A stretch of DNA of 39,163 nucleotides from NCBI GenBank assembly GCA_017435465.1, contig JAFSEX010000060.1, positions 1 through 39,163 on the forward strand. The letters are read 5' to 3'. Shown here one piece after another: positions 143 to 31,800 of the stretch. Each line of letters starts with the position of its first letter. Positions within the stretch are counted from its first letter, which is position 1. The DNA is from Bacilli bacterium. GTDB taxonomy: Bacteria; Bacillota_I; Bacilli_A; RF39; UBA660. Below the pieces are notes generated by a model, which searched no databases, was not told the DNA's origin, and was given only the letters and a program-made list of their open reading frames with translations. The position numbers and the translations under genes were made by a program.

Positions 143-169
143 AAATTGATGACACAAGATCATCAATTT
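143..169 (-). terminator. Hairpin at the end of the T4SS block
   Basis: A perfect 10-bp inverted repeat (aaattgatga / tcatcaattt) with a 7-nt loop overlaps the stop codon of the gene at 168-941. It lies between that gene and the insertion sequence end. The downstream T run on the minus strand is poor, so termination may be weak. Confidence 0.4.
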
Positions 170-941
170 AACAAGATTTTTCTTCGATAAATTTATTATT
201 GTTTAATTTATAAACTAGTGCACACGAATAATTTGGCCTAAACATTTCTTTAGAAATAATTAATTCATATTCTTTATCATTATTATAATCAATAATTCCA
301 GATATTGAATAACTGTATGAATCTAAACGTTTTTTTTCATTTATAACAAGATCTATAAGTTTTTGAATTTTATTATTATTCACATACCACACTAAAGAAA
401 ATCCTTTTTTTATTTTTCCGTTATTCATATTAAACATATTAGACAATAAATATAATTCTTCATTTTCGCCATCATTGTCAAAATCTAAAACTACTTTTTG
501 ATTAAGAGATAACTGTTCAAGACTATCTATTTTAATTTTTAATTCTTCTTCAATTTTTTTGATAATTGAATTATTTATATCTGTAATACTATCTATTTTG
601 AATTCTTTGATTTTAATGTTTTTAGAAGAAACAGCTGTAAAATTACCATTCAATTTTATAGAGTTTCTTTTTTCATCAAATAAATACACTCTATCATTAT
701 GATATTTTACTTCAAATTTTCCTTTATATTCATTATCATCATAAACGTAAAATTTCTTGATATTGAACACTTCATTATCAATAGTATCCCACTTATTATC
801 ATATGTACTCAATTTTATATCATTTCCAATAAGTATATATTCTTCTGGAATTATTTTTTTCTCATTTTTACCAAATAATATTAATACCAATAATATATAT
901 ATACTTAACGAACCAAAAATAATTATATATGACTTTTTCAT
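168..941 (-). CDS. Membrane-anchored protein of unknown function, last gene of the T4SS block
   Basis: A 257-aa protein with an N-terminal hydrophobic segment (about residues 5-24, after MKKS) and a predicted extracellular remainder. There is no lipobox. Residues around 150-165 read LDFDNDGENEELYLL, and a later stretch reads IIDYNNDKEYELIIS. Both are Asp/Asn-rich and resemble the calcium-binding FG-GAP/VCBS-type 'DxDxDGxxE' element seen in secreted proteins that measure or bind ligands. The start is ATG with AGAGGTG upstream. It sits 9 bp after the cell-wall hydrolase gene, so the two are translated from the same message. No specific family recognised; an accessory envelope role is inferred from position only. 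Confidence 0.75.
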   Translation of the reverse strand: MKKSYIIIFGSLSIYILLVLILFGKNEKKIIPEEYILIGNDIKLSTYDNKWDTIDNEVFNIKKFYVYDDNEYKGKFEVKYHNDRVYLFDEKRNSIKLNGNFTAVSSKNIKIKEFKIDSITDINNSIIKKIEEELKIKIDSLEQLSLNQKVVLDFDNDGENEELYLLSNMFNMNNGKIKKGFSLVWYVNNNKIQKLIDLVINEKKRLDSYSYSISGIIDYNNDKEYELIISKEMFRPNYSCALVYKLNNNKFIEEKSC

Positions 942-950
942 AGAACACCT

Positions 951-2762
951 CTAATCAGTTTTTTCATATATTTTAACATCATTATTAAATGATAGAGCGG
1001 CTGTATATTTTTCCCAAAGTAAAGTAGCTGGACTACCAGGATCAAACATATATACATTTTCACCATCAATATAATTAACAGCAACCCAATGTCCATCTCC
1101 AGGTTTAACAGACATTATCAAATAACGATTACCTTTATTTATCTCTTCTCTTAAACGATTAGCTCTTTCAGATTTTGTTCCAGATAAACGGAAAGACTCA
1201 ACAAATTTAAAATTTGGAGCTATTGTTTGCGCTACACCCCAAACAATACTATTACCACTAAACCCACCATTTGCGCTCATTGCTTGTACAAATGTTCCGG
1301 GATTAAAATTATCAATTAACACTTCTGTACCAGAACTAGCAATTTGGATTGCAACTGATGTTGCCGCACATCCTATAGCACCAATCGTTTTATTACCAAG
1401 TGCTACATTTTTCCAATTTGGATCATATTGTTTCCAATTAGCAAACTCACCTGAAGAATTACCATTTACTAAGGTACAATTGGAAGCTACATCTGTTGCA
1501 GAAGAATATTGTCTCATTAATATTTCATAATAATCACTTCCAGCATTTGCCTGTGAATTCCATGAATTTTGTTGACCACTTGCATAACCAGTATTAATAA
1601 TATCACCATCAGAATTAATTAAAACTTCACCAGAAGTTTCTTCTACCGCTGTTCTTATTGGTGAATCTTCTGGAATAGATTCTCTATTATATGGTCTGCT
1701 ACTATCTTGACCAGGATAAACTGTTCCATCAATACCTGGAGCTTCAGTATATTGTCCACCATATGGATTATTTGATGAACAGCCGTCATCTGGATCACAA
1801 TATACTTGATCAGCAACACAATTACGAATTGATACTACCCACTGACCATCAATTCTTTCGATCGTACCAATTGGATCAGGCATCCCTAACCCCCTAGTTA
1901 ATGTATACGAACGAGCCGCAACTGCTTGTACTTTTAACGCTTCAAGTGGTCCAGCACCATTTTCTGCATAAACAACTCCGGCAATATATTTTTCAAAATC
2001 AACAAGTTCTATTCCTTCTATAGGGGAATAATCACCATCTAAATTACCACACTTTAATAATCTAACTTTTAAATCTGTAGCAGTTCCACTATCAACATTA
2101 AATGCACATGATGCACTACCATAATTTGATTTTGTACGACATTCAACTGTTGATGCAATGTTTTCTATTTGTTCATATATTTCGTCAACTTTTTTATCTT
2201 CGTCTTCTGCGCCTTCTAACATTTCGTTATATGGACTACTACGCAAAAATGTATCTTTTACATATGTTTCATAATTGTTTAATCCCTTTTTAACATTCTT
2301 AACTAGCCTTTTTACGTCAGGAATCATCTCTCCATATGGAATATCCTCACCAATATTTTCAGTTATATCTTCTACATCATCCGCACTTTCAATTTCTTGT
2401 TCTTCTATATCTTCACCATATTCCATCATTTTATTTGGATTATTTTGATAGTAAAACATGATAGTGGCAGTAACTAATGTTGATTTTTGACAATCTAAAT
2501 CATCATCTATTATATTCCAAAAAGCTTTTTCATCATCTGTCCACCCATTACCACTTAAAAAGTTACCAAATTTCTCAAAAAAACCTCCACCTGATTCCTC
2601 AGTCTCTTCTGAACTTTCTGATGAATCTTTTGCCATTGAAACAGGTCCAAAAACGACTGCAGCCGCTCCAATAATCAAAACTAATATTAAAGAGCCAACA
2701 AGAACAAAAGGTAAAAGAGGTGCAAGCCATGCTAAAATCATCTTTTTTATTTTTTCCTTCAT
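951..2762 (-). CDS. Cell-wall hydrolase with SpoIID-like and C39-like domains (VirB1-position)
   Basis: A 603-aa membrane-anchored protein. One transmembrane helix (about 13-40) is followed by an acidic, partly helical linker, a SpoIID/LytB-type domain (about 230-425) and a C-terminal C39-like cysteine peptidase domain (about 440-600). The SpoIID part shows GVVYAENG with the presumed catalytic Glu267 and the family signature EALKVQAVAARSYTL. The peptidase part shows GCAATS with Cys465, GHWVAVNY with His558 and FDPGS with Asp574. SpoIID enzymes are lytic transglycosylases, so this protein probably opens glycan strands and peptide crosslinks to let the secretion channel through the wall. Gram-positive T4SS operons normally use SLT plus NlpC/P60 here. 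The start is set by GGGAGGTG before ATG at 2762; an upstream GTG frame extension is less likely. Confidence 0.88.
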   Translation of the reverse strand: MKEKIKKMILAWLAPLLPFVLVGSLILVLIIGAAAVVFGPVSMAKDSSESSEETEESGGGFFEKFGNFLSGNGWTDDEKAFWNIIDDDLDCQKSTLVTATIMFYYQNNPNKMMEYGEDIEEQEIESADDVEDITENIGEDIPYGEMIPDVKRLVKNVKKGLNNYETYVKDTFLRSSPYNEMLEGAEDEDKKVDEIYEQIENIASTVECRTKSNYGSASCAFNVDSGTATDLKVRLLKCGNLDGDYSPIEGIELVDFEKYIAGVVYAENGAGPLEALKVQAVAARSYTLTRGLGMPDPIGTIERIDGQWVVSIRNCVADQVYCDPDDGCSSNNPYGGQYTEAPGIDGTVYPGQDSSRPYNRESIPEDSPIRTAVEETSGEVLINSDGDIINTGYASGQQNSWNSQANAGSDYYEILMRQYSSATDVASNCTLVNGNSSGEFANWKQYDPNWKNVALGNKTIGAIGCAATSVAIQIASSGTEVLIDNFNPGTFVQAMSANGGFSGNSIVWGVAQTIAPNFKFVESFRLSGTKSERANRLREEINKGNRYLIMSVKPGDGHWVAVNYIDGENVYMFDPGSPATLLWEKYTAALSFNNDVKIYEKTD

Positions 2763-2793: not shown

Positions 2794-4581
2794 CTATAGT
2801 CCGCCACGTTCTCCAAATGATTCTAATTCTTGTGGAGTAACTACAATATTAATTCTCATACGTCTACTACCACAAACGAATAAAGCTTCACCTTGATTGT
2901 AACGTTTAATACTATCTTTTTCATTATCATTTAAATCTATTAACATAGCTAAATCATCAACTGCTTGTTTTTTAAGACCCATAATTAAATAGTAAGAAGC
3001 ATTATCAAATATTGCTTTACCTTGAGTTATAACTGCAGGATCTGAGAAGTCAGTTGGTTGTTGTGTACTTATTATAGTACCTGTATTATATTTTCTAGCA
3101 CGTCTTTGTACTTGTGCTAAGAAATCTGCTCCTAGTGTATTATTACCAGCAAGTAAGATATGTGCTTCATCAACATAGAAAGCAGTATTTTTACTTTTAT
3201 CTAGACATAATCCCCATGCATATTTTAAAACATTGAAGAATAATGCATTTTTAATATTTGCATCAGCATTCATAAGTTCTTTAATATTGAATACTATAAA
3301 TTCACTATGTAGGGTTATAGTTGTATGTCCATCAAAATAATATTTTAATTCATTAGTTAATGGTCTAATCTTTATTTCAAGTCTTTCCATTATTTCTCTT
3401 TCATGAGTTTTTTCTTGCATTGCAAGTAATCTACCAGAAATAGTAGCATACACATCTCTAAAAGTTGGGAAATCTGCACTAGTAAAATTAGAGAAATTAG
3501 TATTGAAATCTATTCCAAATCTTCTATATGTATCTTGTACTACTTCAGAGAATAAGTTTAATACATCTTCTGTTATATCTGGAGAATAATATTTCATGAA
3601 TGCTTTAATATTTTGTAATGCATTTGTTAACACTGTATATCCTAGACCTTGTCCACCATCTTCATCATCAGTATCCATAGTAATTTCTAGTGGATTGATC
3701 ATACCATAATCTCCACCTTTACCAAGATCTATGAAATCTCCATCATATAAAGCTGTCATATCAGCAAGTTCACCTTCAGGGTCAATTGCGACAATTTGAT
3801 GTGAATTTCTTATATGACTTCTAAGTAATACTTTTGCAGCAGTTGATTTACCACTACCAGATGTACCTAGGATTATAAGGTTTGCATTATTTCTATTATG
3901 TTCTTTTTTGATTTGATATAAGAATTGATTGAATAATATTACCCCACCAGAGAAGTCGACACCAAGTAGAGTTGATAAACCTGGATCTTTAATACTATCA
4001 AATATGAATGGATACATAGCAGACATTGTTGCAGATGGCATTGGGGTACCTACTCTATCTTCAATATCACGTTTAGGGAATATTGGAACAATTGATTCTA
4101 ATACTTTTTGTTGTTCAAAATGTAATACAACTGCACGCATTTCCATAGATTCTAGAAAGTTTTTAACTTGAACTTTCTTTTGATCAAGTTCTTCCTTAGA
4201 ATCAGCAGTAATCATTACATGCATTTGGAAATCAAAGATTCTAGCTTGAGAAGCTGCCAAATTTTGAATAAAATATTCTAATGATTCATAATCTTGTCTA
4301 ATTCTTTCTTGAATTGTTATATCCTTTTCATTTGAATATCTATTTTTTAAATCTGCTATTTCTTTATTTAACATTTTTCTTAAGACATCAAAAGCAATTG
4401 GTATATGTTTAATAACTACCTTAAGTCCAGCCATATTGGTTAAATTAGATAAAAATCCCGGACTAATATATTTTGGATAAGAAATAATTGTCATAATTGT
4501 TGCATATTTATCACTAATAACAAAATCACCAGGGTTAAAAGAAAGACCTTTAGGGGCTAATTGTGATTTAAGTTTCATCAT
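2794..4581 (-). CDS. virB4: VirB4-type T4SS ATPase, C-terminal motor part
   Basis: A 595-aa protein of the VirB4/TraC/TraE family, the hexameric ATPase that powers type IV secretion and pilus work at the inner face of the membrane. Walker A is GTSGSGKS at about 239-246, Walker B is TAFYVDEAH at about 466-474, and the conserved STQQP follows at about 505-509. Residues 1-230 form the remainder of the usual N-terminal membrane-proximal domain. The first ~190 residues normally found in VirB4 are supplied by the separate upstream gene, whose stop overlaps this start by 4 nt (ATGA), giving translational coupling. A weak GGGAC precedes the start. The sequence is intact through all ATPase motifs, so it looks functional. 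Confidence 0.93.
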   Translation of the reverse strand: MMKLKSQLAPKGLSFNPGDFVISDKYATIMTIISYPKYISPGFLSNLTNMAGLKVVIKHIPIAFDVLRKMLNKEIADLKNRYSNEKDITIQERIRQDYESLEYFIQNLAASQARIFDFQMHVMITADSKEELDQKKVQVKNFLESMEMRAVVLHFEQQKVLESIVPIFPKRDIEDRVGTPMPSATMSAMYPFIFDSIKDPGLSTLLGVDFSGGVILFNQFLYQIKKEHNRNNANLIILGTSGSGKSTAAKVLLRSHIRNSHQIVAIDPEGELADMTALYDGDFIDLGKGGDYGMINPLEITMDTDDEDGGQGLGYTVLTNALQNIKAFMKYYSPDITEDVLNLFSEVVQDTYRRFGIDFNTNFSNFTSADFPTFRDVYATISGRLLAMQEKTHEREIMERLEIKIRPLTNELKYYFDGHTTITLHSEFIVFNIKELMNADANIKNALFFNVLKYAWGLCLDKSKNTAFYVDEAHILLAGNNTLGADFLAQVQRRARKYNTGTIISTQQPTDFSDPAVITQGKAIFDNASYYLIMGLKKQAVDDLAMLIDLNDNEKDSIKRYNQGEALFVCGSRRMRINIVVTPQELESFGERGGL

Positions 4582-5153
4582 GATGGCAACACTGTCCCAA
4601 ATGTAGTACTTTGCGAATTATTAAAGAAATTATCTAATAGCACCCTTAAATCTTCATTAGTTGTTTGCATTGCAACTAGTCCACAACCTGTGAATCCACC
4701 AATTAATTCTCTTACCCTTTTTTGCATAATTTCATCTCTCTTTTCTTGGAATATCAAATAATATTCTGTATCAACTACATTATTAGAAATAAACATATTT
4801 GCTTTATCTATATCCTCAGTTATTAATTTTCTAACCTTTGGATTAGGTGTATTATTATAAAGCAATTGTAATTGTGATAAATATAAAGTTATATCTACAG
4901 GTCTATCTGCAGCAATTATCCAAAATTCATAATCTAACATATTATATAAGTTTTTTAATGCGATAAGTGTGTTTGCCTGTGATTCTTGATCAAGTATAAA
5001 AATATTTCTTGGAGTAATTTTTACTCCAGTAACTTTCCATTTGTTTGAAAGAATTATACATCCATTTTGAATGTTTTCCACTGGTAACCAATCTTCAGCA
5101 TATTTTTTTGATTGATCAACAGCTTTCTGATTTTTAGTATTAGCTTCTGCCAT
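4578..5153 (-). CDS. VirB4 N-terminal domain as a separate protein
   Basis: A 191-aa soluble protein whose sequence corresponds to the extreme N-terminus of VirB4/TraE-type ATPases. It starts with a hydrophilic tail and DWLPVENIQNGCIILSNKWKV, then an alpha/beta region with RELIGGF and LLDNFFNN near the end, the point where the domain normally continues into the rest of VirB4. Together with the downstream gene it gives 786 aa, a usual VirB4 length. GGAGG lies well placed before the ATG. The ATGA overlap with the next gene suggests equimolar production. It could be a natural split or an old frameshift that became fixed; the clean overlap favours the split. Confidence 0.82.
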   Translation of the reverse strand: MAEANTKNQKAVDQSKKYAEDWLPVENIQNGCIILSNKWKVTGVKITPRNIFILDQESQANTLIALKNLYNMLDYEFWIIAADRPVDITLYLSQLQLLYNNTPNPKVRKLITEDIDKANMFISNNVVDTEYYLIFQEKRDEIMQKRVRELIGGFTGCGLVAMQTTNEDLRVLLDNFFNNSQSTTFGTVLPS

Positions 5154-5184: not shown

Positions 5185-5502
5185 TTATTTAAAATCGTCA
5201 TCATCATATATTCTCCAACCCTTCCAATAAAATCTTTTTGGATTCATAAAATATGTAATAACATTTGTTATAGCAACCAATACATTATGATAATTAGGAA
5301 CTGGCATTACTAATAACGCACAAATACCAGCAGGAATCATTGTGATGACTACTTGAGTTATATCTTTTGTAAAACCTAACATTATAAATATAAATGTTAT
5401 TGCAACACCTGTTGCAAAAATTATTAAATCAATTGGTCTAAACATTCCCAAAATCAACTTACTTTTTTTTGAATTTGCGGGAATTAAATACATTTCATTC
5501 AT
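5185..5502 (-). CDS. PrgI/VirB3-like small membrane protein
   Basis: A 105-aa protein with two close transmembrane helices (about 26-46 and 49-68) and a basic C-terminal part ending FYWKGWRIYDDDDFK. Small two-helix proteins directly upstream of virB4 are the PrgI/VirB3 family in Gram-positive and Gram-negative T4SS operons, where they anchor VirB4 to the membrane. Size, topology and position all fit; sequence identity to the family is not obvious by eye. It lies 16 bp after the VirB6-like gene, with GAAAGG as its ribosome site, and 31 bp before the split virB4. Confidence 0.75.
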   Translation of the reverse strand: MNEMYLIPANSKKSKLILGMFRPIDLIIFATGVAITFIFIMLGFTKDITQVVITMIPAGICALLVMPVPNYHNVLVAITNVITYFMNPKRFYWKGWRIYDDDDFK

Positions 5503-5518: not shown

Positions 5519-7477
5519 CTAATTATTACCTGGAGGGGCATCCATCTTGTCTGCTTTTTTAACAATACCAGCTTTAGCTCTTTGTTCAGCATCATATTCT
5601 TTAGCTTTACCCATATCAGTAACAGCTTTTTCATGTTCTGCTCTTGCCTTACTTGCAGCTTCTTGTTGTTCAGTATATGTTTTTTCCATATCATAAACTG
5701 ATTTCCATAATTTTTGTTCATCTGTTGCAGTACCATTATCAATAGCTTCATTAATAACATCAAGATCATATTCATTACTCATATATTGTTTCCCATTTGC
5801 AGTTGTATATTGATTAAGTAGTGCTTGATATTGAGACTGAGTTCTCGCAGCAATATTAGCAGTTTCTGCAGCCCTTTCCTGAGTTCCACCAGCCCCATAT
5901 ACATAGTTTTTCCAAGCATCTGCCACTTTTGTTGATTTTAATGCTTTATCATCCACAGCATTCCTTGCGATATTAATTGCATTAATAGATTTTTTACCAC
6001 CTGATGATTGTGCAGCTACAGTAGTTGCTTTTGCTCCACTGATTAAATTTTTCCCAAAGCCAGTCATTCCTGTTGCACTAGCCATTAATCCACTTTTACC
6101 AGCGTTCCAAAAATTTGTCATAACTTGTGAAGCTTTTTCTCTCCCTGATAACATAGGATTTACCATAACATTCGCATTTTTATCAGCAAAAGCAGTAATA
6201 GCTTGACCAGCTTTTCCAGCAGTAGAAGCACTTGCTGCAGCACGTAATTTAGCACCCATTCCACCATCTGGGCCAGCACTTTTCCAACCAGCTTTAATAT
6301 TTGATGCTTCTTTCCCAACTTTAGCTGCTACTACAGAGCCTCCGGCAGCCATAGCACCAACTGCACCTGCAGCTAATGGAGCAGCAGCAAGTTTTTTTCC
6401 TACACTTAATCCATAGTCTCCACCTTCACCTTTAATACCAAATAAATCTTTAATAAGTTTAGGTGCTTGAGCAGCAAACATTAATAACCCTAAAATAACT
6501 ATAATTTTAGCAAAATTTTCAGTAGCAAATCCATAATCTAATTCACTAAAGAATGTATCTAATTCAGGTAGCCCATATTGAATGAAAAAGATAACGAAAT
6601 TTATTATAATCAGCCTTAAAAACACATCGGCATATGTGGATAAAACAGATTTCAACCAATTATTAAATGGACCGTCTTTTTTACCATCTAAAAACGAAAC
6701 AATTGGAATTGGCGCAGTCAGTTCATAAAAGGCCATTTTTGCAACTCTAAGCCCTATATCTAAACAATAGACTGCAAACATATATGCAGCAAATCCACCT
6801 GCAATCAAAGAAAGAAATATTTTATAATCAATACAAAAAGTATCCCCGTTCTCACCTTCATATACATCATCAATTTCTGCATAAAGACTTGAAACACCAT
6901 CATTACCTATATTATTAATAGCATGCAAACTATCTTCACACGCATCATCACTAAGATTTGATACATCAAGGGGATCATCAGCATCAGGATCAGTTAATGC
7001 ACCCTCATCAATTGTAGCAAAACCCGAAAATATGGTATTTGCAATTGTAGCACCAGTCTCTTTATCGTTTTCTGTAGTTGTTCCTAAAATAACTGCACTA
7101 ATAATATTGTCTTTTAAAATAGCATCTTGTATTTTATATGCATATGTAAAGCACCATGGTATCGCAATAATTAGGGCAAGCATACCAACTAACCTAACAA
7201 CTATTTTTCCTGCACCTTTTTGTTTATCGTTTATACTATCAGGATTAACAATCATATTAATTAAAATAAATGTAACCTTAAATAAAGCATAAACACCAAT
7301 CAAAGCATATATTCTACCAGCAATTTCTTCTATTAGTGCACCACCGCTCAACAATCTTATTCTTGAAACTACAAAAAACAAATTATAAAAGAAATCGACC
7401 AATGAATATACTATACTATCTATAAATAATAAAAGATATCTTATACCAGTCATTAAAAGTTCGGTAAACCAACTCAT
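5519..7477 (-). CDS. VirB6/TrbL-like polytopic channel protein with a long soluble tail
   Basis: A 652-aa protein. The first ~365 residues contain several hydrophobic helices, including a conserved-looking pair around LIAGGFAAYMFAVYCLDIGLRVAKMAFYEL and FIQYGLPEL through VILGLLMFAAQAPKLIKDLFG. This matches VirB6/TrbL/TraG-N type proteins that form the inner-membrane pore. Residues from about 375 are Ala/Gly-rich and then charged and predicted coiled coil (EKTYTEQQEAASKARAEHEK), ending in a polar DKMDAPPGNN tail. GGAGTG precedes ATG at 7477. It follows the second VirB2-like gene by 18 bp and precedes the VirB3-like gene by 16 bp, a standard T4SS core order. Confidence 0.82.
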   Translation of the reverse strand: MSWFTELLMTGIRYLLLFIDSIVYSLVDFFYNLFFVVSRIRLLSGGALIEEIAGRIYALIGVYALFKVTFILINMIVNPDSINDKQKGAGKIVVRLVGMLALIIAIPWCFTYAYKIQDAILKDNIISAVILGTTTENDKETGATIANTIFSGFATIDEGALTDPDADDPLDVSNLSDDACEDSLHAINNIGNDGVSSLYAEIDDVYEGENGDTFCIDYKIFLSLIAGGFAAYMFAVYCLDIGLRVAKMAFYELTAPIPIVSFLDGKKDGPFNNWLKSVLSTYADVFLRLIIINFVIFFIQYGLPELDTFFSELDYGFATENFAKIIVILGLLMFAAQAPKLIKDLFGIKGEGGDYGLSVGKKLAAAPLAAGAVGAMAAGGSVVAAKVGKEASNIKAGWKSAGPDGGMGAKLRAAASASTAGKAGQAITAFADKNANVMVNPMLSGREKASQVMTNFWNAGKSGLMASATGMTGFGKNLISGAKATTVAAQSSGGKKSINAINIARNAVDDKALKSTKVADAWKNYVYGAGGTQERAAETANIAARTQSQYQALLNQYTTANGKQYMSNEYDLDVINEAIDNGTATDEQKLWKSVYDMEKTYTEQQEAASKARAEHEKAVTDMGKAKEYDAEQRAKAGIVKKADKMDAPPGNN

Positions 7478-7495: not shown

Positions 7496-7849
7496 TTATG
7501 ATACACTGCATGACTCTATGCCAATTAACGAAAGTAAATACTCTAAAATAGATGGAACAAAAAATATAACCACACCAATTATTAAACGCATAACAAAATC
7601 TTTTTGAGCTTTTTTCATTTTCTGATCATCATTTGCAATTAAAGCTTTTACAAAATCAATCATCCCCATAAGTATTAAAAGTATAGGAACAACTATTTTT
7701 ATGATTCCAAATATTTCTCTAATTAGTTCCATAGTCTCTCCCGCACAATTAATAACTGTGTCAGCGAAAACTTTATTATAAAATGATAAATATGTAGCTA
7801 ATCCTACATAAAATAACATTGATATTTTTCTAAATTTATTTATTTGCAT
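7496..7849 (-). CDS. VirB2/TrbC-like two-helix protein B
   Basis: A 117-aa protein with a signal-peptide-like N-terminus (hydrophobic about 10-29, followed by ADTVINCAG) and two further hydrophobic helices, IIKIVVPILLILMGMIDFVKALI and LIIGVVIFFVPSILEYLLSLIG. A short charged hairpin, NDDQKMKKAQKDF, lies between them. This is the TrbC/VirB2 pilin layout: signal, helix, basic loop, helix. Cys residues sit in both extracytoplasmic ends (NCAGE and ESCSVS), so a disulfide could lock the subunit. It is a clear paralogue of the protein at 7954-8325. GGAGG lies upstream, and it begins the main T4SS operon. Confidence 0.85.
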   Translation of the reverse strand: MQINKFRKISMLFYVGLATYLSFYNKVFADTVINCAGETMELIREIFGIIKIVVPILLILMGMIDFVKALIANDDQKMKKAQKDFVMRLIIGVVIFFVPSILEYLLSLIGIESCSVS

Positions 7850-7953: not shown

Positions 7954-8325
7954 TTATTTATTACGTTTAGGACAATTATCAGGATTAAGGACACACTCAA
8001 CACAATTATAGTCATCAACTTTGCCTTCACCATAACCATCAAATACCAATCCCATTAAAAGATTAACAATTGCAGGAATAAAGAAAACTATAACAGCAAC
8101 GATTGCTCTCTTAACCAGTGTACTTTGTGCCTTTTTAATCTCATCATCTTTAGAAGCCATAACTGCTTTCATCAAATCTAAACTTCCCATAACAATTAAT
8201 AAAATTGGAACAACAATTCTTACGATGTTAATTAAAGTTCCTACAAGCCAAAAAACACGAGTTAAACTTGTATCCCAATTCTCAGTACATAATGCTGCCT
8301 CTGCCATAATATTTAATAAATCCAT
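7954..8325 (-). CDS. VirB2/TrbC-like two-helix protein A
   Basis: A 123-aa paralogue of the next gene. It has two strongly hydrophobic helices (about 25-50, ILLIVMGSLDLMKAV; and about 68-90, AVIVFFIPAIVNLLMGLVF) joined by SKDDEIKKAQSTLVKRA, the same charged loop as in the neighbour. No cleavable signal is obvious at the N-terminus (MDLLNIMAEAALCTENWDT). The tail is Cys-rich (NCVECVLNPDNCPKRNK). It most resembles VirB2/TrbC pilins of type IV secretion systems. AAGGAGG precedes the ATG. Its own strong promoter and terminator suggest it is made in excess over the channel proteins, as expected for a structural subunit. Confidence 0.85.
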   Translation of the reverse strand: MDLLNIMAEAALCTENWDTSLTRVFWLVGTLINIVRIVVPILLIVMGSLDLMKAVMASKDDEIKKAQSTLVKRAIVAVIVFFIPAIVNLLMGLVFDGYGEGKVDDYNCVECVLNPDNCPKRNK

Positions 8326-9943: not shown

Positions 9944-9977
9944 TAAAAAAATAACAATCATTTAAAAGATTGTTATT
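9944..9977 (-). terminator. Main terminator of the Tad-like block
   Basis: On the minus strand AATAACAATC pairs with GATTGTTATT around an 8-nt loop, followed by a run of T. It overlaps the stop codon of the gene at 9976-10431. Confidence 0.85.
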
Positions 9978-10431
9978 AAACTGTAGGATCATCACCAGCA
10001 TCTGGTGGATTTGTAATTACTTTAGTTTCTCCTCTTACTGGAATTGTAAATACATTTCCTAAAACAGGAAACTCAAAACTAACATATGTAGAAACTTTAT
10101 ATATTCTATATTTTCCTTCAGGACCGGATGATGTCCCTTTAATACATACACCATTAACTGTTGCCAAAGTTCCATTTTCAGATCCAGGCGCAATTCCTTC
10201 ATCTGAAGTACATGTATGTCCTCTATAATATCCAGAATTACCTATTGTTTCAAAAATTTTATCATACGCTTCTTTTGTATAACCCTCATATTGTTCTAAT
10301 ATACTTATAATTTGATTTTTAATTCTAAATGCTTGTGAATAATTAATTGCGATTGCTAAAAAAGACGCAAAAAAGAAGATGAAGAAAATCATCAATTTAA
10401 ATAAAAATGTACTTCCTACCGCTTCTCTCAT
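9976..10431 (-). CDS. TadE-like minor pilin
   Basis: A 151-aa protein beginning MREAVGS, then one transmembrane helix (about 8-28, FLFKLMIFFIFFFASFLAIA), a helical stalk (QAFRIKNQIISILEQYEGYTKEAYDKIFETIG) and an extracellular domain with two Cys (CTSDEG, VCIKG) that ends in beta-rich VSTYVSFEFPVLGNVFTIPVRGETKVI. Short leader, single N-terminal helix and beta-rich tail describe TadE/TadF-type pseudopilins. The leader MREAVG closely matches MKEATG of the preceding prepilin, suggesting processing by the same peptidase. The gene is 27 bp after the prepilin gene and ends at a strong terminator. Confidence 0.72.
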   Translation of the reverse strand: MREAVGSTFLFKLMIFFIFFFASFLAIAINYSQAFRIKNQIISILEQYEGYTKEAYDKIFETIGNSGYYRGHTCTSDEGIAPGSENGTLATVNGVCIKGTSSGPEGKYRIYKVSTYVSFEFPVLGNVFTIPVRGETKVITNPPDAGDDPTV

Positions 10432-10458: not shown

Positions 10459-10701
10459 TTAATTTTCTAATTTTATGCATGTAGAAGTATTTAAAGCAGC
10501 AGTTCCAGCTGGACAACAATAATAAACACTACCACTCTTAAATGCTTTCGCACCTTTTTGGTTTAACATTGACTCACAAGTACTATTTCTTATACCAGTA
10601 CTAACTGCAGGTATAACAACAGTTGTAGCAATTAATCCTAATGCTGCTATAACAACCACAGTAATAACTGTCATATTTAATTCTCCAGTAGCCTCTTTCA
10701 T
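10459..10701 (-). CDS. Small prepilin, probable major Flp-like subunit
   Basis: An 80-aa protein, MKEATGELN followed by a hydrophobic helix (about 10-33, MTVITVVVIAALGLIATTVVIPAV) and a short polar tail with four Cys (STCESML, YYCCPAGT, TCIKLEN). Size and layout fit Flp-type prepilins of Tad systems: short leader ending in Gly, then a helix. The usual Glu at +5 is not present; Glu is at +1 after Gly6. The paired cysteines should form two disulfides outside the cell. A near-consensus promoter stands immediately upstream, so this is probably the most highly expressed gene of the block. No prepilin peptidase gene lies in the window. Confidence 0.75.
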   Translation of the reverse strand: MKEATGELNMTVITVVVIAALGLIATTVVIPAVSTGIRNSTCESMLNQKGAKAFKSGSVYYCCPAGTAALNTSTCIKLEN

Positions 10702-10793: not shown

Positions 10794-11579
10794 TTAAATA
10801 TTTAACATCATCATCATTGATACAAGTAATAACACAATTACACCTGCGCCAGTAACACCAAGCATTATCATTGTTTTGCCTTGCATTTTCTCTAAACGTT
10901 CTTTATATTTTTGTTCGCGTGCTTTATTTTGTAATGATGATACAGTTTTTGATAATAATAACAATTGTTCTTGTTTATTATCTTGTAAACCTAAACCTAG
11001 TCTATATAAAAGTCTCATCATACGCATAGAATCTCTAACAGGATATTTTTTAGCAAAATCCATATATGGATCTATTGATGAATCCCCTGCTTCTATTTTT
11101 CCTATCATTTCTTTTAGTCCTGGTCTAAATATTTCAGGGGCATCTTTAATCGATCTACTTATTGCCACTGGGACAGTATAGTGTTGAACTAATACTTCTA
11201 GTGACTTTAAGTAATAAGGTAAAAGTAAATCTATTTCGTGTAGATGTCTTTTATAATAACTTTTAAGTGATAAGTATTGTGATTTAAATATATAACCTGC
11301 AACTAAACCACAAATTAATATATTTAAGAAACTTAACTTATTAATAAATACTATTACCATAACTGCAAAAATTAATGCAGCATTTTTAATTCTTGTACTA
11401 AATAATTTATTCACATCAACATCATTACCATATTTAGCGATTACTAAGAATTCATAATCTTCTTCTTTAAGTAATTGTAAATATGCTTCATTATCTTTAA
11501 AGAATGCCGTTGCACTAGCATTACCATTTACAAATACAATTATTAATATTATCGCACCAACTACAAATATTTCCCACAT
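10794..11579 (-). CDS. tadC: TadC-like T2SS-F family membrane protein
   Basis: A 261-aa polytopic protein of the type II secretion F (T2SSF) family. It has an N-terminal helix (1-20), a helix pair at about 70-105, a conserved cytoplasmic helical region (EIDLLLPYYLKSLEVLVQHYTVPVAISRSIKDAP...GLKEMIGKIEAGDS) and a C-terminal helix (MIMLGVTGAGVIVLLLVSMMMML). In Tad pili, TadB and TadC together form the inner-membrane platform driven by TadA. Its start overlaps the stop of tadB by one base (TAATG), so they are translationally coupled. Confidence 0.85.
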   Translation of the reverse strand: MWEIFVVGAIILIIVFVNGNASATAFFKDNEAYLQLLKEEDYEFLVIAKYGNDVDVNKLFSTRIKNAALIFAVMVIVFINKLSFLNILICGLVAGYIFKSQYLSLKSYYKRHLHEIDLLLPYYLKSLEVLVQHYTVPVAISRSIKDAPEIFRPGLKEMIGKIEAGDSSIDPYMDFAKKYPVRDSMRMMRLLYRLGLGLQDNKQEQLLLLSKTVSSLQNKAREQKYKERLEKMQGKTMIMLGVTGAGVIVLLLVSMMMMLNI

Positions 11580-12481
11580 TATTCTGCACCTACATTCTCA
11601 TTATAGTATTTTTCACCATTTAGTAAGAAATAACTATTAAATAATAATATTGCGTGTAGAACAAGTTGTATATACCACAGTTCTATCATTTTTAAATATG
11701 AATCGGTACCTAATAATAATTGTATTACTGCAACAAGTAAGAACAACATAAGTCCATATGAAATAAATTGTTTATGGAATTGTTGTCTTTCCATTCTATC
11801 TATATATACTCCTTCAACAAGCGTATCTATATCTAGTGACATATTATCTAGTGAACCAGATATATCATGTGCACCTTCTTTAGTTACTTGTAAAAATAAT
11901 TGATGTAAATTTTTAACTATATGATAATTATATTTTGTACTCATATAATGAAGTGAATCATCTATTTGACCATTTTCATATGCCATTGTAAGCATTTTTT
12001 TAACATCACCAAGTACTGGTTCTTCTAATACACCAGATTCTACAATTCCTTCAAGTGCTTTAACAAATGATTTTGTTGTTTGATATTCCATTATTGTATT
12101 AGTTGCATAAGTTTGTATTTGTTCAAATATAAATTCACTATAAATTCTTTTATAACGCATTTGTGCTAAGTAAGGTATAAATGATATTGCTACTAATGCA
12201 TATACTATTGACCATATAATACTATAGAAGTAAAGATATGCTATACCACCAGCTACTCCACCAAAGATTACGACTTGTAATAAATAATCTTTAGTAGTGT
12301 ATTCAGCATTCATTTCTTTAACCTTTTCTTTTATAGTTTTATATGAATATGGAGCTATTTTTTCATATACTTGTCCCAATTGATTTTTGACATATATATA
12401 TACATTTTCTCCCTTTTTGGCTCTATAAGTTATTATAAACAACGCTATAAAAATTATTATGCCAAATATAAGGAAATCCAT
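11579..12481 (-). CDS. tadB: TadB-like T2SS-F family membrane protein
   Basis: A 300-aa protein with an N-terminal helix, a middle helix pair (about 70-108), a T2SSF-type cytoplasmic domain (SEFIFEQIQTYATNTIMEYQTTKSFVKALEGIVESG...LTMAYENGQIDDSL) and two C-terminal helices. It partners TadC as the pilus assembly platform. GGTGG precedes ATG, and the gap to the ATPase gene is 19 bp. Confidence 0.85.
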   Translation of the reverse strand: MDFLIFGIIIFIALFIITYRAKKGENVYIYVKNQLGQVYEKIAPYSYKTIKEKVKEMNAEYTTKDYLLQVVIFGGVAGGIAYLYFYSIIWSIVYALVAISFIPYLAQMRYKRIYSEFIFEQIQTYATNTIMEYQTTKSFVKALEGIVESGVLEEPVLGDVKKMLTMAYENGQIDDSLHYMSTKYNYHIVKNLHQLFLQVTKEGAHDISGSLDNMSLDIDTLVEGVYIDRMERQQFHKQFISYGLMLFLLVAVIQLLLGTDSYLKMIELWYIQLVLHAILLFNSYFLLNGEKYYNENVGAE

Positions 12482-12500: not shown

Positions 12501-13589
12501 TTACATTATTATTTCTTCTGCATCATTAGAAATGGCATTAACCATTACTGATTCAGGTAAATTTATACCTTGGGTATCTAGATACCCAATTAAATATTTA
12601 GTAGGATTGCTTCTAAATATTCTTCCATCAGCTGTTTTTCTATAGATTGTATGATGTCCAGGTTTGTTATCTTCAGTAACAAAGAATTCTGTAACTTCTA
12701 CAATTTCTCTTTGGAATCTATTATATTGTTTAGAAAAATATCCTCTTACATGAACACCTAATTGTACATACCTATGAATAGATGTTAAGAATTGTTCAAT
12801 ATCTATATTAGATTCTAATAAACTATATAAACGACTTGGAATTGATTCCGCTTTATCAGAATGTATTGTAGAAAGTATATTATGACCTGAAGAAATTGAG
12901 TTTCTAACAGCCATAACTGCTTCAGCACTTCTGACTTCCGATAATAATATCCATTTTGGATTTTGTCTCATACATGTTACTAGTACATCTGAATAAGAGG
13001 CAATATTATTTGTTTTCATTGCAACTATATCACGATGTGGAAAAATTCTATCTAGATGTAATTCTAATGTATCTTCTATTGTAATTAATTTTTCATTTTC
13101 AAAAGTATGTGATGCTAAATATTTTACAAATTCGGTTTTACCAGAACCAGTTTCCCCACTTACAATTATGTTACAGTGTCCATGTACACATTCTATTAAG
13201 AAATCATGAACATCCAATGTAACATAATTTTCTTCTAATAATTTATCTTTCTTAAGTCTTATTTTAGCAGGAGTTTTTCTTAAAACAGCTGCAATTCCAT
13301 TTTTTGCAATTGATTCATGTACAAAGTTAAGACGCAATTCAGCACCTTCAGCATCCAAAAATGGTTGTGCCATATTAAATGTCTTACCCATTGCATTAGA
13401 ACATTGGAAAGCTATTTTTTCCATTAAAGCATTATTTACTTCATTATTTTCAACTCTATATACCCCATTTGTTAATGATTTAACCCATAACTGACCACCA
13501 TTACTATATGAAATATCAGTTACATCATCATTTTCTAAATATTGTTTTAAAGGACCAAAGTCTATATGTTCAAACACATTATCTTCCAT
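12501..13589 (-). CDS. tadA: TadA/VirB11-type secretion ATPase
   Basis: A 362-aa ATPase of the GspE/TadA/VirB11 superfamily. Walker A is GETGSGKT (145-152), the Asp box is ITIEDTLELHL (about 169-179), Walker B is WILLSEVR (213-220), and the His box is STIHSDKAESIPSR (about 240-253). It lacks the long N-terminal region of many TadA proteins and at 362 aa is near VirB11 size. In the Tad reading it powers pilus extension through TadB/TadC. Because a T4SS core with no other VirB11 lies downstream, it might serve both machines; that is inference. It overlaps no neighbour, but follows the SAF protein gene by only 2 bp. Confidence 0.92.
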   Translation of the reverse strand: MEDNVFEHIDFGPLKQYLENDDVTDISYSNGGQLWVKSLTNGVYRVENNEVNNALMEKIAFQCSNAMGKTFNMAQPFLDAEGAELRLNFVHESIAKNGIAAVLRKTPAKIRLKKDKLLEENYVTLDVHDFLIECVHGHCNIIVSGETGSGKTEFVKYLASHTFENEKLITIEDTLELHLDRIFPHRDIVAMKTNNIASYSDVLVTCMRQNPKWILLSEVRSAEAVMAVRNSISSGHNILSTIHSDKAESIPSRLYSLLESNIDIEQFLTSIHRYVQLGVHVRGYFSKQYNRFQREIVEVTEFFVTEDNKPGHHTIYRKTADGRIFRSNPTKYLIGYLDTQGINLPESVMVNAISNDAEEIIM

Positions 13590-13591: not shown

Positions 13592-14464
13592 TTATTCACC
13601 TTCTGTACTAACATTTGGGGTATTATTTTCTGGTAATTGATCTAAAGGTACATTTACAGTTCTTTCTTCTATAAAGTTTTTTAAATATGAACTTGTAACT
13701 TCAATTGAACCTTTATAATCTTCATCACTAACTGAAGCAACAACTGGTACGGGTATTAAATCAACAGAATATTGTGATAAATAATTTGCTTTTCTAAGCA
13801 GTAAATGTAAATCTTCACTAACACCAAAAATTAAAGTAGATGGTGTTCTGTTTTCAGCAGTATTTTCAAATACATCTCTACCACTAGAATCTAATACGGC
13901 TAAAACTTTAACATCTTTCAATAATTTCCCAATCATTGTTTTTCCATCGCCACCAATGGCCTTCATATAAATGTTTACATACATTCCATCCATAATAGCA
14001 TTTCCATAAGTATCACTATAATTAATTGAAAATGCATAAGGAACTTGTCCTTCTGGAATTTTTAATAGCACAGATGATGGAATACTGCTTCTATCCACCA
14101 CATTTACATTTTTAATTAGTGTTGAACCTTTTGGAATAAGTGCATTAACATTTGAATATGCACCATTTTCAAAAGTATCAAGTTCACTAGAATATCTCAT
14201 AACAGATTGCCCACTACCATATTCTCCTTGCATTTTATTATACATTACTTTTGCGATACTAATAGTTTCTACCATACTAGATGTAATTCTTGTCCTTGGT
14301 TGAATAGTTTCTTTGGCTACTAACACTGAAATTTGTTCTACTTGTTGATTAATTCTCCAAGAATAACCAAAATATAGAACAGCAATTCCAACCAAAGTAC
14401 CAAGAATTGTCACAGTGTTCTTATTAGTAAGAATCTTTTTTAGTGAAGCGACAAAATTATTCAT
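13592..14464 (-). CDS. cpaB: CpaB/RcpC-like SAF-domain protein
   Basis: A 290-aa protein with one N-terminal transmembrane helix (about 17-34) and an extracellular SAF domain that starts SVLVAKETIQPRTRITSSMVETISI (about 46-70) and includes ALIPKGSTLIKNVNV (about 112-126). A second conserved part follows (YAFSINYSDTYGNAIMDGMYVNIYM), and a long C-terminal region. SAF proteins of Tad systems (CpaB/RcpC) bind the cell wall or stabilise the pilus outside the membrane. It sits directly upstream of the ATPase gene, the usual cpaB-cpaF arrangement in Firmicutes. GGAGG precedes ATG. Confidence 0.88.
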   Translation of the reverse strand: MNNFVASLKKILTNKNTVTILGTLVGIAVLYFGYSWRINQQVEQISVLVAKETIQPRTRITSSMVETISIAKVMYNKMQGEYGSGQSVMRYSSELDTFENGAYSNVNALIPKGSTLIKNVNVVDRSSIPSSVLLKIPEGQVPYAFSINYSDTYGNAIMDGMYVNIYMKAIGGDGKTMIGKLLKDVKVLAVLDSSGRDVFENTAENRTPSTLIFGVSEDLHLLLRKANYLSQYSVDLIPVPVVASVSDEDYKGSIEVTSSYLKNFIEERTVNVPLDQLPENNTPNVSTEGE

Positions 14465-14504: not shown

Positions 14505-14906
14505 TTAATATCTAGTTTCTAGTATTGCGTCAATTTTATTTACAATATTAAATTCTTCGCCAGTAAAAGTGAGCGGTGTTGACTTGGCACCAACAGTTAA
14601 ACTAACTTTAGGTGGGTATTCAACTATATCATATATTTTTATAGTTATTTCTTTTCCAAGTCCCATACTTTCAGCATATCGTCTAATAAAACTTTCTGTA
14701 AACTTTTCTTTATCAATTGCTACTTTTCCGTCACTTACCGCATAATATACTTCATCAAATGCATCAAGCATTGCAGCTTCTGTTATTTCTTTTGTCAAAT
14801 AATAATTTTGTTCATTTGTATTAGTAACATCTTGGAATAATAGTAATATTGATATTCCTACAACACCAACTACTATTATAAAATATCCCCAAATTGAGTG
14901 TTGCAT
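14505..14906 (-). CDS. TadE-like single-helix protein
   Basis: A 133-aa protein starting MQHSIWG and then a transmembrane helix (about 8-26). The extracellular part has a helix (NEQNYYLTKEITEAAMLDAFDEVYYAV) and a beta-rich end (ITIKIYDIVEYPPKVSLTVGAK). This resembles TadE/TadG-type pseudopilins; small families of this kind in uncultured Firmicutes are annotated only as DUFs. The upstream gene ends TAATG, overlapping this start by one base. GGAGGTGG lies before the ATG at 14906, which rules out the earlier TTG. Confidence 0.7.
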   Translation of the reverse strand: MQHSIWGYFIIVVGVVGISILLLFQDVTNTNEQNYYLTKEITEAAMLDAFDEVYYAVSDGKVAIDKEKFTESFIRRYAESMGLGKEITIKIYDIVEYPPKVSLTVGAKSTPLTFTGEEFNIVNKIDAILETRY

Positions 14907-17900
14907 TAACAACCACCTCCTAATACACCAAAATCACCAATACGACATTGTCTATTTGTTATATTAACTTTTAATTTGTTATCATATGTTTCATTAAAAT
15001 CTGATAATTTATCACTTTCCGCAACAGTACCTGTTAGTGAATTTAAAAATTTACTATATCTACACAATCCATCACCACATGACCCATCATTTGATATAGC
15101 CATAGTATCATAACTAGAATAATCTGGATGTTTATCATTAAATTCTCTAATATCATCTGCCATTTGATTAGTAATTGTAATTTCATACATAGGTTCTTGG
15201 GTATAAATACTTTCTCCTTTTCTACTATTATCTGTATTTTGTGTTATATATGTATAACTGTTTCCATTTTTATATTTAAACCAATTAGGTGCTGTTTCTC
15301 TATAATTTGAATCAGTAGAAACATCATCATTAGGGAACGGATCAGTTAAAGAAATTGGTCTAAAATAATAATTAGGTGTTCCAGGTGTTGGTGGTGGTAG
15401 TGGACAAGAAGGGTCAGATACTGGATCACAGTTTTCCGGACAAGAAGGATCAGTTTCCGGATTACAAGGACATGTCCCCTCTATTGCACAATTTAAAACA
15501 GTATAATGACACGAATATATATTTTCACCACTACTACTTCCTATTTCTTTACTTATTCCACCATTTTTTATTGAAATATCAAAATTATAAGTTCCTGTTG
15601 TATCTGTTATATTAGTATAAATCTTATTTCCAGCAGAAATATAATTTTTACCAGGCGAAGTATTAGTATTCTTATATTTAATATCATTCCCATTATTTTT
15701 ATTAATAAATGCATATGGCAATTTAGTTTTATATGTATATGTTTGCTTTGCGGTAGTATCATAAATTGTAGCTTTCAATATAGCAACATCGCCTACATTT
15801 GTTGAATTACACACATTTTCTGGAGTAACACCAGTATTACTCCATTCATATAAGTATTCTTCACATACCCAATAAAAGTGTGGATATGATCCTTTTTTAA
15901 CCCTATTATTGCATATTTCTGTACATGTTATACTTGAATCTTTATAATAATATTCCGTACTTCCTGAATATTCAAGATTACTAATATTAAGACTATCATA
16001 ATCAAGAATTATTGGATGAGTTTCATCAGTTCTATCATCAACAAATGTTATTTCTTGTGATGAAATATATGATGAAAAATTATTTTTAATATTAGTTAAT
16101 TCATTTTTAAAACCATCATACATTGTATTTATAACATCTTTACTTTCTAATGGATGATCTTTATCATAACCATTTGCCATATTTAATGAATATTCTACAT
16201 TATCTGTAATATCTAGTGGATACTCAAACCCAGTTCCTGACGTAACGCTTGTAGATGAAGCTTTTATTGAAATATTTTCTTTATCAATATTAACATATGT
16301 TGTTCCATCCATTTTTTTTGTTGTACTATATTCTTTATTTGATGTTTTTGTTGCTGTATTACAAGTTAATGATGTATCTGCTTTATAACCTTTGTTTTTT
16401 GGATCACCAGGACCAGTATCACAAATAGACTTATTACTATTATAAAATGTAGTACTCCCATTACAGCATTTTAAATAATTATTTTTTCCAAAATCACTAC
16501 CTGATTCGTTGCAACATTTATCAAGATGTTTATCAGCATAACTCATGTTTGTACAAGTATTATTACCAGATGGTTTCTTAGAGCCTCCACTATCATTCCA
16601 ACATAAAGCAATTTTTATTGGAACAAAAAATATTTTAGCATCATTATAATCATATGCACTTGGAGCGGAAGTCGAATCTTTAGATAAATTATATACTGTT
16701 ACAGTAATATCTATTAAATATTTTGAATTATCACTAGGATCAATTCTTGGATTAGAAACTTTATAACTAAAATTTTTTTTTGTTAAGGAGTTGGATTTAT
16801 ATGTTGATGGAACTTCAATTACATCGTCTCCACCTACCATTACATTACCTTTAGCTTTTTGCTTTAAATATGCATCATAATCATTTGTAGTAGTATTATC
16901 AAAATATGAATGACCAACTTGATTAAGTTCATAATCCTTTTTTTTATCTATGCGTATTGTATATGTAAAAGTATAAGATGACGAACAAGCACCATTTCCA
17001 TTTATATCACAAGTAACATTCTCTTTTGCTAAATGGTGTCCTTCACTATCGTAGGATGTGTAGAATGTTGTATAAAAATAATCTGTTTTAGCAGTAGAAC
17101 ATGTTTCAGGAGAAGTTGGATTTGATAGAATTAAACCTGAACATTTGCCAGGATTTTTACTAACAAAAGTCGGATCAGAACAACAAATATTACCTTGCCA
17201 TTTATCTTTATAGTATGTTACCCAAATACCGTCATTATTTGAGGAACCTATCCATGGTTCACCGTTGCTTTGTGTTGTAACATTACAACATGATTCAGGT
17301 ATATCTTTGCAACAAACCCCTGGTCTTGCCATAGCAAATTCATATGGAGTTTGAACACCCGGAATACCTGTACCACAACATGTTTCAGGATATTCATAAC
17401 AACATGTACCAGGATTATTTTCTGCATATTTTTTTGAAACATCATTTCCAAGTGCACACATATTACTAAGATATTCAATTTCAATTTTTAAAGGCAAGAA
17501 ATAATGAAATGATATTTGTTTTGAAAGACTATTATTCTTTTTCCATCTACCAGGCGCACCAAATATATTACTACTACCATCATAAGAATTCCATCCAACT
17601 GCAAGTTTTTTTATATCATATATCCATGATATATACCATGTTCCATTAACATTTTCCAACTTTATATTTTCTACAGAAAAGTTATTTGGTGAAACTGAAA
17701 CTGATTGAAATAAATCACCAGTATTTGGTAATTGGTAAATTGCCTCTCCACTTAATTTAAGTAAACCGTTTTCGTGAGAGTATACAATTGTTTCAACCAT
17801 TTCTTCACCAACAAAAGATGCCAAAGTTTCATATCTTCGATAACGCAACGACATACCAGGATATACCACTGTATTATTTAACTGTTCAATTTGATTAAAT

Positions 17901-18298
17901 GAAACAGCATTACCAGGTGCAGGATTATTTTCACTCCACGCATCTACTCTACCTGAAAAATATGCAGTAAATATTGTTTTACCACCGGCAACATTTTTAG
18001 AACTATAACTAAAATTATCATGTACCGGATATTCTTCTTTAAGACATATTGGAATACCATTATCAATGTTTCCAGCACTACTAGGATTTATACATTTTGG
18101 AACAACATTTTTTTTAATTGTATCAGGAACTGTAACATTTCTAGATGTTGATGTAGAAATAACACAATTGGCATATTCACCTGTAATTGTAGTAAGACTA
18201 CAGTCTTCGGCGCCATATACTACATTCTTATTATTAATTATATTAAATAGAAAAAATATAAATAGAACATTTAATATTTTCTTTGTATTCCTTTCCAT
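14906..18298 (-). CDS. Large secreted Cys-Cys-rich surface protein
   Basis: A 1,130-aa secreted protein with a signal peptide (helix about 9-22, probable cleavage after VYGA at 30). Residues 290-400 and 580-640 carry repeated Cys-Cys motifs: PGTCCYEYPETCC (about 297-308), RPGVCCKDIPESCC (about 326-338), NICCSDP, LDKCCNES and YLKCCNGS. After a Pro-rich CPCNPETDPSCPENC segment near residue 940 comes a C-terminal domain ending CRIGDFGVLGGGC. There is no sortase motif and no C-terminal membrane helix, so it may be held by the pilus, the wall or disulfides. It starts a run of coupled genes leading to the CpaB protein and ATPase, so it is probably an exported component or tip adhesin. No family recognised. 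Confidence 0.85.
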   Translation of the reverse strand: MERNTKKILNVLFIFFLFNIINNKNVVYGAEDCSLTTITGEYANCVISTSTSRNVTVPDTIKKNVVPKCINPSSAGNIDNGIPICLKEEYPVHDNFSYSSKNVAGGKTIFTAYFSGRVDAWSENNPAPGNAVSFNQIEQLNNTVVYPGMSLRYRRYETLASFVGEEMVETIVYSHENGLLKLSGEAIYQLPNTGDLFQSVSVSPNNFSVENIKLENVNGTWYISWIYDIKKLAVGWNSYDGSSNIFGAPGRWKKNNSLSKQISFHYFLPLKIEIEYLSNMCALGNDVSKKYAENNPGTCCYEYPETCCGTGIPGVQTPYEFAMARPGVCCKDIPESCCNVTTQSNGEPWIGSSNNDGIWVTYYKDKWQGNICCSDPTFVSKNPGKCSGLILSNPTSPETCSTAKTDYFYTTFYTSYDSEGHHLAKENVTCDINGNGACSSSYTFTYTIRIDKKKDYELNQVGHSYFDNTTTNDYDAYLKQKAKGNVMVGGDDVIEVPSTYKSNSLTKKNFSYKVSNPRIDPSDNSKYLIDITVTVYNLSKDSTSAPSAYDYNDAKIFFVPIKIALCWNDSGGSKKPSGNNTCTNMSYADKHLDKCCNESGSDFGKNNYLKCCNGSTTFYNSNKSICDTGPGDPKNKGYKADTSLTCNTATKTSNKEYSTTKKMDGTTYVNIDKENISIKASSTSVTSGTGFEYPLDITDNVEYSLNMANGYDKDHPLESKDVINTMYDGFKNELTNIKNNFSSYISSQEITFVDDRTDETHPIILDYDSLNISNLEYSGSTEYYYKDSSITCTEICNNRVKKGSYPHFYWVCEEYLYEWSNTGVTPENVCNSTNVGDVAILKATIYDTTAKQTYTYKTKLPYAFINKNNGNDIKYKNTNTSPGKNYISAGNKIYTNITDTTGTYNFDISIKNGGISKEIGSSSGENIYSCHYTVLNCAIEGTCPCNPETDPSCPENCDPVSDPSCPLPPPTPGTPNYYFRPISLTDPFPNDDVSTDSNYRETAPNWFKYKNGNSYTYITQNTDNSRKGESIYTQEPMYEITITNQMADDIREFNDKHPDYSSYDTMAISNDGSCGDGLCRYSKFLNSLTGTVAESDKLSDFNETYDNKLKVNITNRQCRIGDFGVLGGGC

Positions 18299-18312
18299 CA
18301 AATCACCACCTA

Positions 18313-30415: not shown

Positions 30416-30439
30416 TGTATTTCCTCCTATCTTTTATTA

Positions 30440-31030: not shown

Positions 31031-31052
31031 CTCTCTTCCCTCCTACTATTAC

Positions 31053-31751: not shown

Positions 31752-31800
31752 TTTAAAATCCTCCAATCTTACTATAAACATACTATCATATTTTTCAATA

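Follow-up and report, generated by a model that had tools for sequence, protein, structure and literature searches.

A predicted SpoIID-C39 wall hydrolase at the VirB1 position of a chromosomal T4SS/Tad hybrid locus in Bacilli

Organisation of the locus

The window, i.e. the whole stretch of 39,163 nucleotides analysed here, is contig C55 of a 1.46-Mb genome that is 86% complete. It carries a run of genes on the minus strand, given below together with the two catalytic domains of the protein under study; the contig ends just past the first gene listed.

168..941 (-), conserved 257-aa protein between hydrolase and VirD4, without a known family
951..2762 (-), SpoIID-C39 wall hydrolase, 603 aa; membrane anchor, helical linker, SpoIID and C39/papain-like domains
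954..1469 (-), coding part of the C39/papain-like peptidase domain, residues 432-603; predicted Cys465/His558/Asp574
1476..2114 (-), coding part of the SpoIID domain, residues 217-429; predicted catalytic Glu267; conserved Cys219, Cys322, Cys328 and Cys429
2794..4581 (-), VirB4 ATPase, C-terminal part (NF045975, E 3.6e-105)
4578..5153 (-), VirB4, N-terminal part (NF045975, E 1.6e-14)
5185..5502 (-), PrgI/VirB3-like small membrane protein, named in part from its conserved position (weak match to the NF045975 N-terminus, E 0.0035)
5519..7477 (-), VirB6/TrbL-like polytopic membrane protein (NF045890, E 3.2e-9; NF045889, E 2e-8; ortholog to TrbL_4, E 6.8e-5, below cut-off)
7496..7849 (-), T4SS pilin (PF18895, E 3.6e-8)
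7954..8325 (-), second T4SS-pilin-like protein (E 0.0014, below cut-off)
9976..10431 (-), TadE-like minor pilin, named from its N-terminal helix and position
10459..10701 (-), Flp-like small pilin, named from position and topology
10794..11579 (-), putative TadC-like membrane protein (T2SSF/PilC cytoplasmic domains among its structural matches, Z only 4.7-5.3)
11579..12481 (-), TadB-like membrane protein, named from position and topology
12501..13589 (-), CpaF/VirB11-family secretion ATPase (T2SSE, E 2.4e-26; CpaF, E 2.8e-18; VirB11, E 3e-16)
13592..14464 (-), CpaB/RcpC-like protein (ortholog matches SAF above cut-off)
14505..14912 (-), DUF5411 protein (E 3.2e-46)
14906..18316 (-), large cysteine-rich secreted protein of 1136 aa, no known family, head of the gene run

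Read from its head, the run comprises the genes for the 1136-aa protein, the DUF5411 protein, the CpaB-like protein, the CpaF/VirB11-family ATPase, the TadB-like and TadC-like proteins, the small pilin, the TadE-like protein and two T4SS pilins. These are followed by the VirB6-like and PrgI-like genes, VirB4 split into two genes, the hydrolase and the 257-aa gene. VirD4 comes next in relatives, where it is contiguous with the run and lies two genes after the hydrolase; in the genome of the window it is located near the end of another contig (C62). The hydrolase had been assigned to the VirB1 position in an earlier note on this DNA, and the arrangement with VirB4 directly upstream and, in relatives, VirD4 two genes downstream supports this placement. 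At the head of the run, one further genome (G015) has a similarly placed ORF of 998 aa, likewise without a known family, compared with the 1136-aa cysteine-rich protein of the window.

The T4SS core at the locus consists of the VirB4 and VirD4 ATPases, a VirB6-type protein and the weakly labelled VirB3-like part, and the CpaF-family ATPase and CpaB/SAF represent components of a Tad/Flp pilus. VirB11 models score about equally well on this ATPase. The two Tad-type membrane proteins are less readily assigned. The TadB-like protein has no family match in Pfam. No Pfam match was obtained for the TadC-like protein either, and a profile search of the PDB with its homologs came back empty; the model that AlphaFold gave for it is of low confidence (pLDDT 62) and weakly resembles the PilC, EpsF and OutF domains at a Z of about 5, with no structural match at Z 8. 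A prepilin peptidase (PF01478) occurs in most sampled members of the family and was not found in the incomplete genome of the window.

A relaxase (PF03432) was absent from the locus in all 37 genomes examined, and none was present among the ORFs tested around the locus of G015. The relaxases of these genomes are encoded away from the locus and several of them adjoin a different, ICE-type VirB4, for instance on contig C24 of the genome of the window. The VirB4 and VirB6-type proteins match the NCBIfam models of the Mycoplasma ICE (Mbov_0396/0397) and of pLS20, though below the equivalog cut-offs; unlike in those systems, VirB4 is split, a relaxase is missing and Tad/Flp-type genes belong to the same run. 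The T4SS operon proposed in the earlier note does contain T4SS genes, but it is not an ordinary conjugation operon: this chromosomal locus combines T4SS with Tad/Flp-type genes, lacks a relaxase and has been retained by most of the family. We infer that it encodes a machine for protein secretion or pilus building rather than for DNA transfer. A description of this locus was not found in the openly licensed literature searched and may exist elsewhere.

Several other regions of the window were recorded in passing. An ORF at 24227-25321 joins a prepilin-type N-terminus to a glycine-rich ALK/LTK-like domain; a homolog directly follows VirD4 in G006 (L107) and others lie near the locus in L024, L052, L054 and L061, which makes it a possible pilin-like adhesin belonging to this machinery. 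At 28239-29177, a RhuM-family part is fused to a Fic/DOC domain. Three related ORFs stand in tandem at 29837-31808 and share a FAYFTATAS pattern at the N-terminus, which we take to resemble that of TasA/camelysin; the one ORF tested gave no Pfam match. From 37600 to 39163, the GC content jumps from about 20% to 47-57%, and this segment carries a ZIP-transporter-like fragment and a 21-base tandem repeat coding for Pro-Ala-Glu repeats. This right end is the only part of the contig that looks foreign, and it is probably chimeric or a contaminant.

The two catalytic domains of the hydrolase

The hydrolase ORF extends from an ATG at 2762 to a stop codon at 951-953, with a ribosome-binding site of the GGAGGTG type just 5′ of the ATG. 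It is separated by 31 bases from the upstream gene for the C-terminal half of VirB4 and by 9 bases from the downstream 257-aa gene. The N-terminus forms one hydrophobic helix (about residues 9-42), followed by a helical linker domain (about residues 60-205) and the SpoIID and C39 domains, both of which were predicted confidently by AlphaFold on the basis of 41 homologs (pLDDT mostly >85-90). Membrane anchoring, as claimed previously, is supported by this helix and by a membrane segment in each of the 127 scanned proteins that occupy the same genomic slot and carry a recognised enzymatic domain; the topology is likewise a predicted one.

The SpoIID identity of residues 217-429 is certain. Pfam places a PF08486 match at residues 249-381 (E 2.7e-11, 44.4 bits against a cut-off of 23), and SpoIID was matched in all 41 aligned homologs. 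TIGR02669 gave an E-value of 1.1e-12, under its full-length cut-off. The AlphaFold model of residues 217-429 superimposes on C. difficile SpoIID (5i1t) with Z 16.4 and an rmsd of 2.6 over 154 residues at 25% identity, and the model of residues 222-478 resembles the lytic transglycosylase SleC (Z 14.2). Glu267 aligns with the conserved glutamate of the GVVxxE segment in B. anthracis SpoIID (4rwr); the catalytic glutamate is E88 in the B. subtilis and E101 in the C. difficile protein (PMC6635528, PMC6221140). A glutamate occupies this position in 80 of 83 homologous SpoIID domains, and Cys219, Cys322, Cys328 and Cys429 are also well conserved. C322 and C328 are spaced like C140 and C146 of C. 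difficile SpoIID, which are among its proposed zinc ligands (PMC6221140); the likeness is one of spacing. Hence, both the SpoIID-type domain postulated earlier for residues 230-425 and its glutamate hold up, with lytic transglycosylase activity as a prediction. The domain looks shorter than canonical SpoIID, whose usual HGxGMSQWGA motif near the C-terminus could not be recognised here. The full-length match to the equivalog for stage II sporulation protein D (TIGR02870) failed, with 36 bits against a cut-off of 234.75. As judged from these profile scores, the hydrolase shares a domain with the sporulation protein but is not that protein.

Assignment of the C-terminal half is based mainly on structure and on homologs. 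Pfam found no match in the window copy, neither with the whole protein nor with the C-terminal half alone. Peptidase_C39_2 was matched in 5 of the 41 homologs with E-values up to 0.01, and PF13529 scored above cut-off in some other proteins of the slot. The closest structure to the model of residues 430-603 is the pseudomurein endoisopeptidase PeiR (Z 12.1), an enzyme cutting wall peptide, followed by the C39 peptidase of PCAT1 (Z 11.2) and a C39-like protein of B. anthracis (Z 9.9). Among homologous C39 domains, Cys465 is retained in 69/69, His558 in 68/69 and Asp574 in 64/69, which together with the matches in homologs and the structural Z-scores of 10-12 agrees with the C39-like peptidase and the triad named previously. 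In comparison with PeiR, PCAT1 and ComA, the papain-like fold (Z 10-12) and the Cys-His-Asp triad are kept at a low sequence identity of 10-17%. C39 peptidases proper cut leader peptides in ABC transporters. The homologous proteins behind the conservation counts (69-83 domains) are mostly about 30-45% identical. Both active sites are thus strongly constrained, as the near-invariance of their residues indicates. Enzymatic activity of the SpoIID and C39 domains is predicted from folds and conserved active sites, and the bond that the C39 domain cuts is a presumed one.

Distribution of the fusion and variability of the slot

The locus VirB4 was found in 163 of 193 sampled genomes of the family, a group of uncultured Bacilli, and in 129 of its 148 sampled genera, with identities of roughly 68-92%. 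Housekeeping genes are located further along the same contig. The presence of this VirB4 in most of the family, a criterion of distribution and not of a phylogenetic tree, suggests that the machine is chromosomal and passed on vertically and is not a mobile element. Among 395 genomes at the class level and 392 at the phylum level, matches covering both SpoIID and C39 were all within the family and all had an adjacent VirB4, and no full fusion was encountered outside VirB4 loci. VirB4 lies directly upstream of the full-length fusion in every case with sequence there, and the homolog of the 168-941 gene and then VirD4 lie downstream in most. A wide spread of the fusion outside T4SS loci was therefore not found in these genomes, nor did the protein match any of 72,556 plasmids or 50,697 phages. 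The lack of such matches and the position of the relaxases away from the locus led us to reject a mobile-element origin. We also rejected an origin of the gene by contamination because gene order and closely similar VirB4 sequences are common to relatives of the same family.

C39-type proteins without SpoIID were noted away from the locus in G005 (L010), G010 (L011) and G009 (L009); those of G005 and G010 are near a divergent ICE-type VirB4. These proteins suggest that the C39 module has been exchanged between mobile and chromosomal systems.

The content of the slot was surveyed at 102 loci selected by VirB4 and not by the hydrolase, with the window and five genomes also carrying VirB4 kept in; 48 loci retrieved with the fusion itself as query are biased and were left out of the architecture counts. 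A wall hydrolase is encoded in the slot or at most 5 kb downstream of VirB4 at 95 of the 102 loci; among the seven others, L174, L199 and L230 are truncated or run into a contig end. SpoIID occurs in the slot at 50/102 loci (45/97 without the five extra genomes), accompanied by a recognised peptidase or amidase in 45 of the 50 proteins and by none recognised in five. SpoIID and C39 are found together at 29 loci, 23 of them with exactly the SpoIID-C39 arrangement. This is the commonest of about twenty architectures, a figure in which rare types may be miscounted since domain labels came mostly from our own profiles, built on Pfam-confirmed segments. Others include SpoIID-CHAP, SpoIID-M23, M23-SpoIID, SpoIID-NlpC-Amidase_3 and M23-lysozyme. 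Some glycan cutters were missed by the local profiles, and the proteins concerned were first labelled by one domain only; as seen with Pfam, slots without SpoIID can pair another glycan cutter with a peptidase (glucosaminidase and C39, glucosaminidase and CHAP, phage lysozyme and M23). The proposal that SpoIID-C39 replaces the usual hydrolase as a new combination thus stands in so far as the fusion is real at T4SS loci, whereas it is one of many solutions in this slot. A second, separate wall-hydrolase gene (M23, NlpC/P60, CHAP or SpoIID-C39) was observed at most 5 kb downstream of VirB4 at nine loci (L111, L170, L178, L181, L186, L194, L198, L202 and L216).

Exchange of modules can be seen within a genus. 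The VirB4 of G002 is 92% identical to that of the window, and its slot protein carries CHAP instead of SpoIID-C39 and aligns to the hydrolase of the window only over residues 20-155 (32% identity), i.e. over the anchor and N-terminal domain. Across genera, VirB4 is around 70% identical compared with about 30-45% for the slot proteins. The N-terminal helical domain occurs with different catalytic parts, although its profile recognises only a minority of the slot types other than SpoIID-C39. Its recurrence suggests that the helical linker is probably a docking part.

Proposed function and alternative explanations

Multidomain hydrolases encoded with VirB4 and VirD4 are known from Gram-positive conjugation systems. 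PrgK of pCF10, TraG of pIP501 and Orf14 of Tn916 likewise combine glycan and peptide cutters in varying modules, but they use SLT or muramidase domains with CHAP, LytM or NlpC/P60, whereas the hydrolase described here uses SpoIID and C39 (PMC12857230, PMC11323569). The view that Gram-positive T4SSs rely on SLT plus NlpC/P60, from which the earlier note had started, is too narrow, as PrgK is LytM-muramidase-CHAP and TraG SLT-CHAP (PMC12857230, PMC11323569). In a T4SS review from 2025, the domains given for VirB1 homologs are SLT, muramidase, CHAP and LytM, and SpoIID and C39 do not occur in its text (PMC12857230). One survey reported that a few polyvalent proteins encoded by phages and conjugative elements carry a SpoIID-like domain (PMC5512222). 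Pfam scans detected no SLT domain in the hydrolase, which has SpoIID in its place. By position and make-up it resembles a VirB1 homolog, but it falls outside the known ALPHA, BETA and DELTA classes, which carry SLT or muramidase domains.

We consider it likely, with a probability of roughly 0.78, that the hydrolase is a VirB1-like, bifunctional enzyme that locally opens the cell wall for the chromosomal T4SS/Tad hybrid machine. One N-terminal helix would hold it in the membrane. Outside the membrane, the SpoIID domain would act as a lytic transglycosylase on the glycan strands and the C39/papain-type domain would cleave crosslinks or stem peptides, and the combined cuts would open a local gap for the channel or pilus. 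One polypeptide would then unite two activities that are split between SpoIIP and SpoIID in spore engulfment. The catalytic modules have been exchangeable over evolution, with anchor and position constant. The DMP engulfment machinery offers the same SpoIID domain, the same position of the catalytic glutamate and the expected stem-removing partner (PMC6221140); here, by contrast, the partner is fused, is C39, CHAP, M23 or NlpC and not SpoIIP, the context is a secretion locus and the SpoIID domain is apparently shortened. C. difficile SpoIID alone is inactive on intact peptidoglycan and needs the prior action of SpoIIP (PMC6221140), which would explain why SpoIID is fused to a stem cutter. A SpoIID homolog from Waddlia, however, acted on whole peptidoglycan (PMC6635528). 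A C39-type endopeptidase would cut crosslinks and not denude glycans, whereas SpoIIP is a stem-removing amidase. This speaks against the bifunctional reading, as do the seemingly short SpoIID domain with no recognisable HGxGMSQWGA motif and the five SpoIID slot proteins that have no recognised partner.

The main rival to a bifunctional enzyme assumes that one domain alone is active and that the other, most likely C39, binds the wall and restrains or positions its partner. Two of the three domains of PrgK from pCF10, LytM and CHAP, were inactive and dampen the remaining one (PMC11323569), so the C39 domain could be regulatory, and five of the 50 SpoIID slot proteins lack a recognised peptidase. 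As the LytM domain of PrgK has visibly lost catalytic residues, while C465 (69/69), H558 (68/69) and E267 (80/83) are kept here, we regard this explanation as unlikely. Even less probable is an action on the wall of a neighbouring target cell, as a delivery tip or antibacterial effector whose module swaps track the wall chemistry of the partner. A VirB4 that changes slowly while the catalytic modules beside it are swapped would fit such a role, as would the presence of VirD4 and the absence of a relaxase at the locus. Every scanned member, however, has a membrane segment, VirB1-position enzymes of known systems cut the wall of the producer itself, and with the next gene (168-941) belonging to no known family nothing marks an immunity protein.

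That the gene encodes an ordinary autolysin of growth or division merely lying beside secretion genes appears highly improbable. SpoIID-like proteins do function in division of non-sporulating bacteria (PMC6635528), and the genome of the window has separate SpoIID-domain genes on contigs C47 and C34. Against this, a hydrolase occupies the slot at 95 of 102 VirB4 loci, where contig ends account for three of the seven exceptions, and the full fusion was not found elsewhere in the 395 and 392 sampled genomes. A further-reaching version of the bifunctional wall opener, in which a constant anchor in the relaxase-less hybrid carries glycan and peptide cutters that are swapped within a genus to match a changing wall chemistry, possibly that of partner or prey cells, seems rather doubtful to us.

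In summary, two enzyme folds, SpoIID and C39, are added to the VirB1 repertoire. Within one bacterial family, the wall-hydrolase slot has been rebuilt repeatedly around a fixed machine, which provides a testable rule: one anchor carries one glycan cutter and one stem or crosslink cutter. With this analysis, a widespread relaxase-less secretion or pilus locus is flagged in bacteria sampled here almost entirely as metagenome-assembled genomes.
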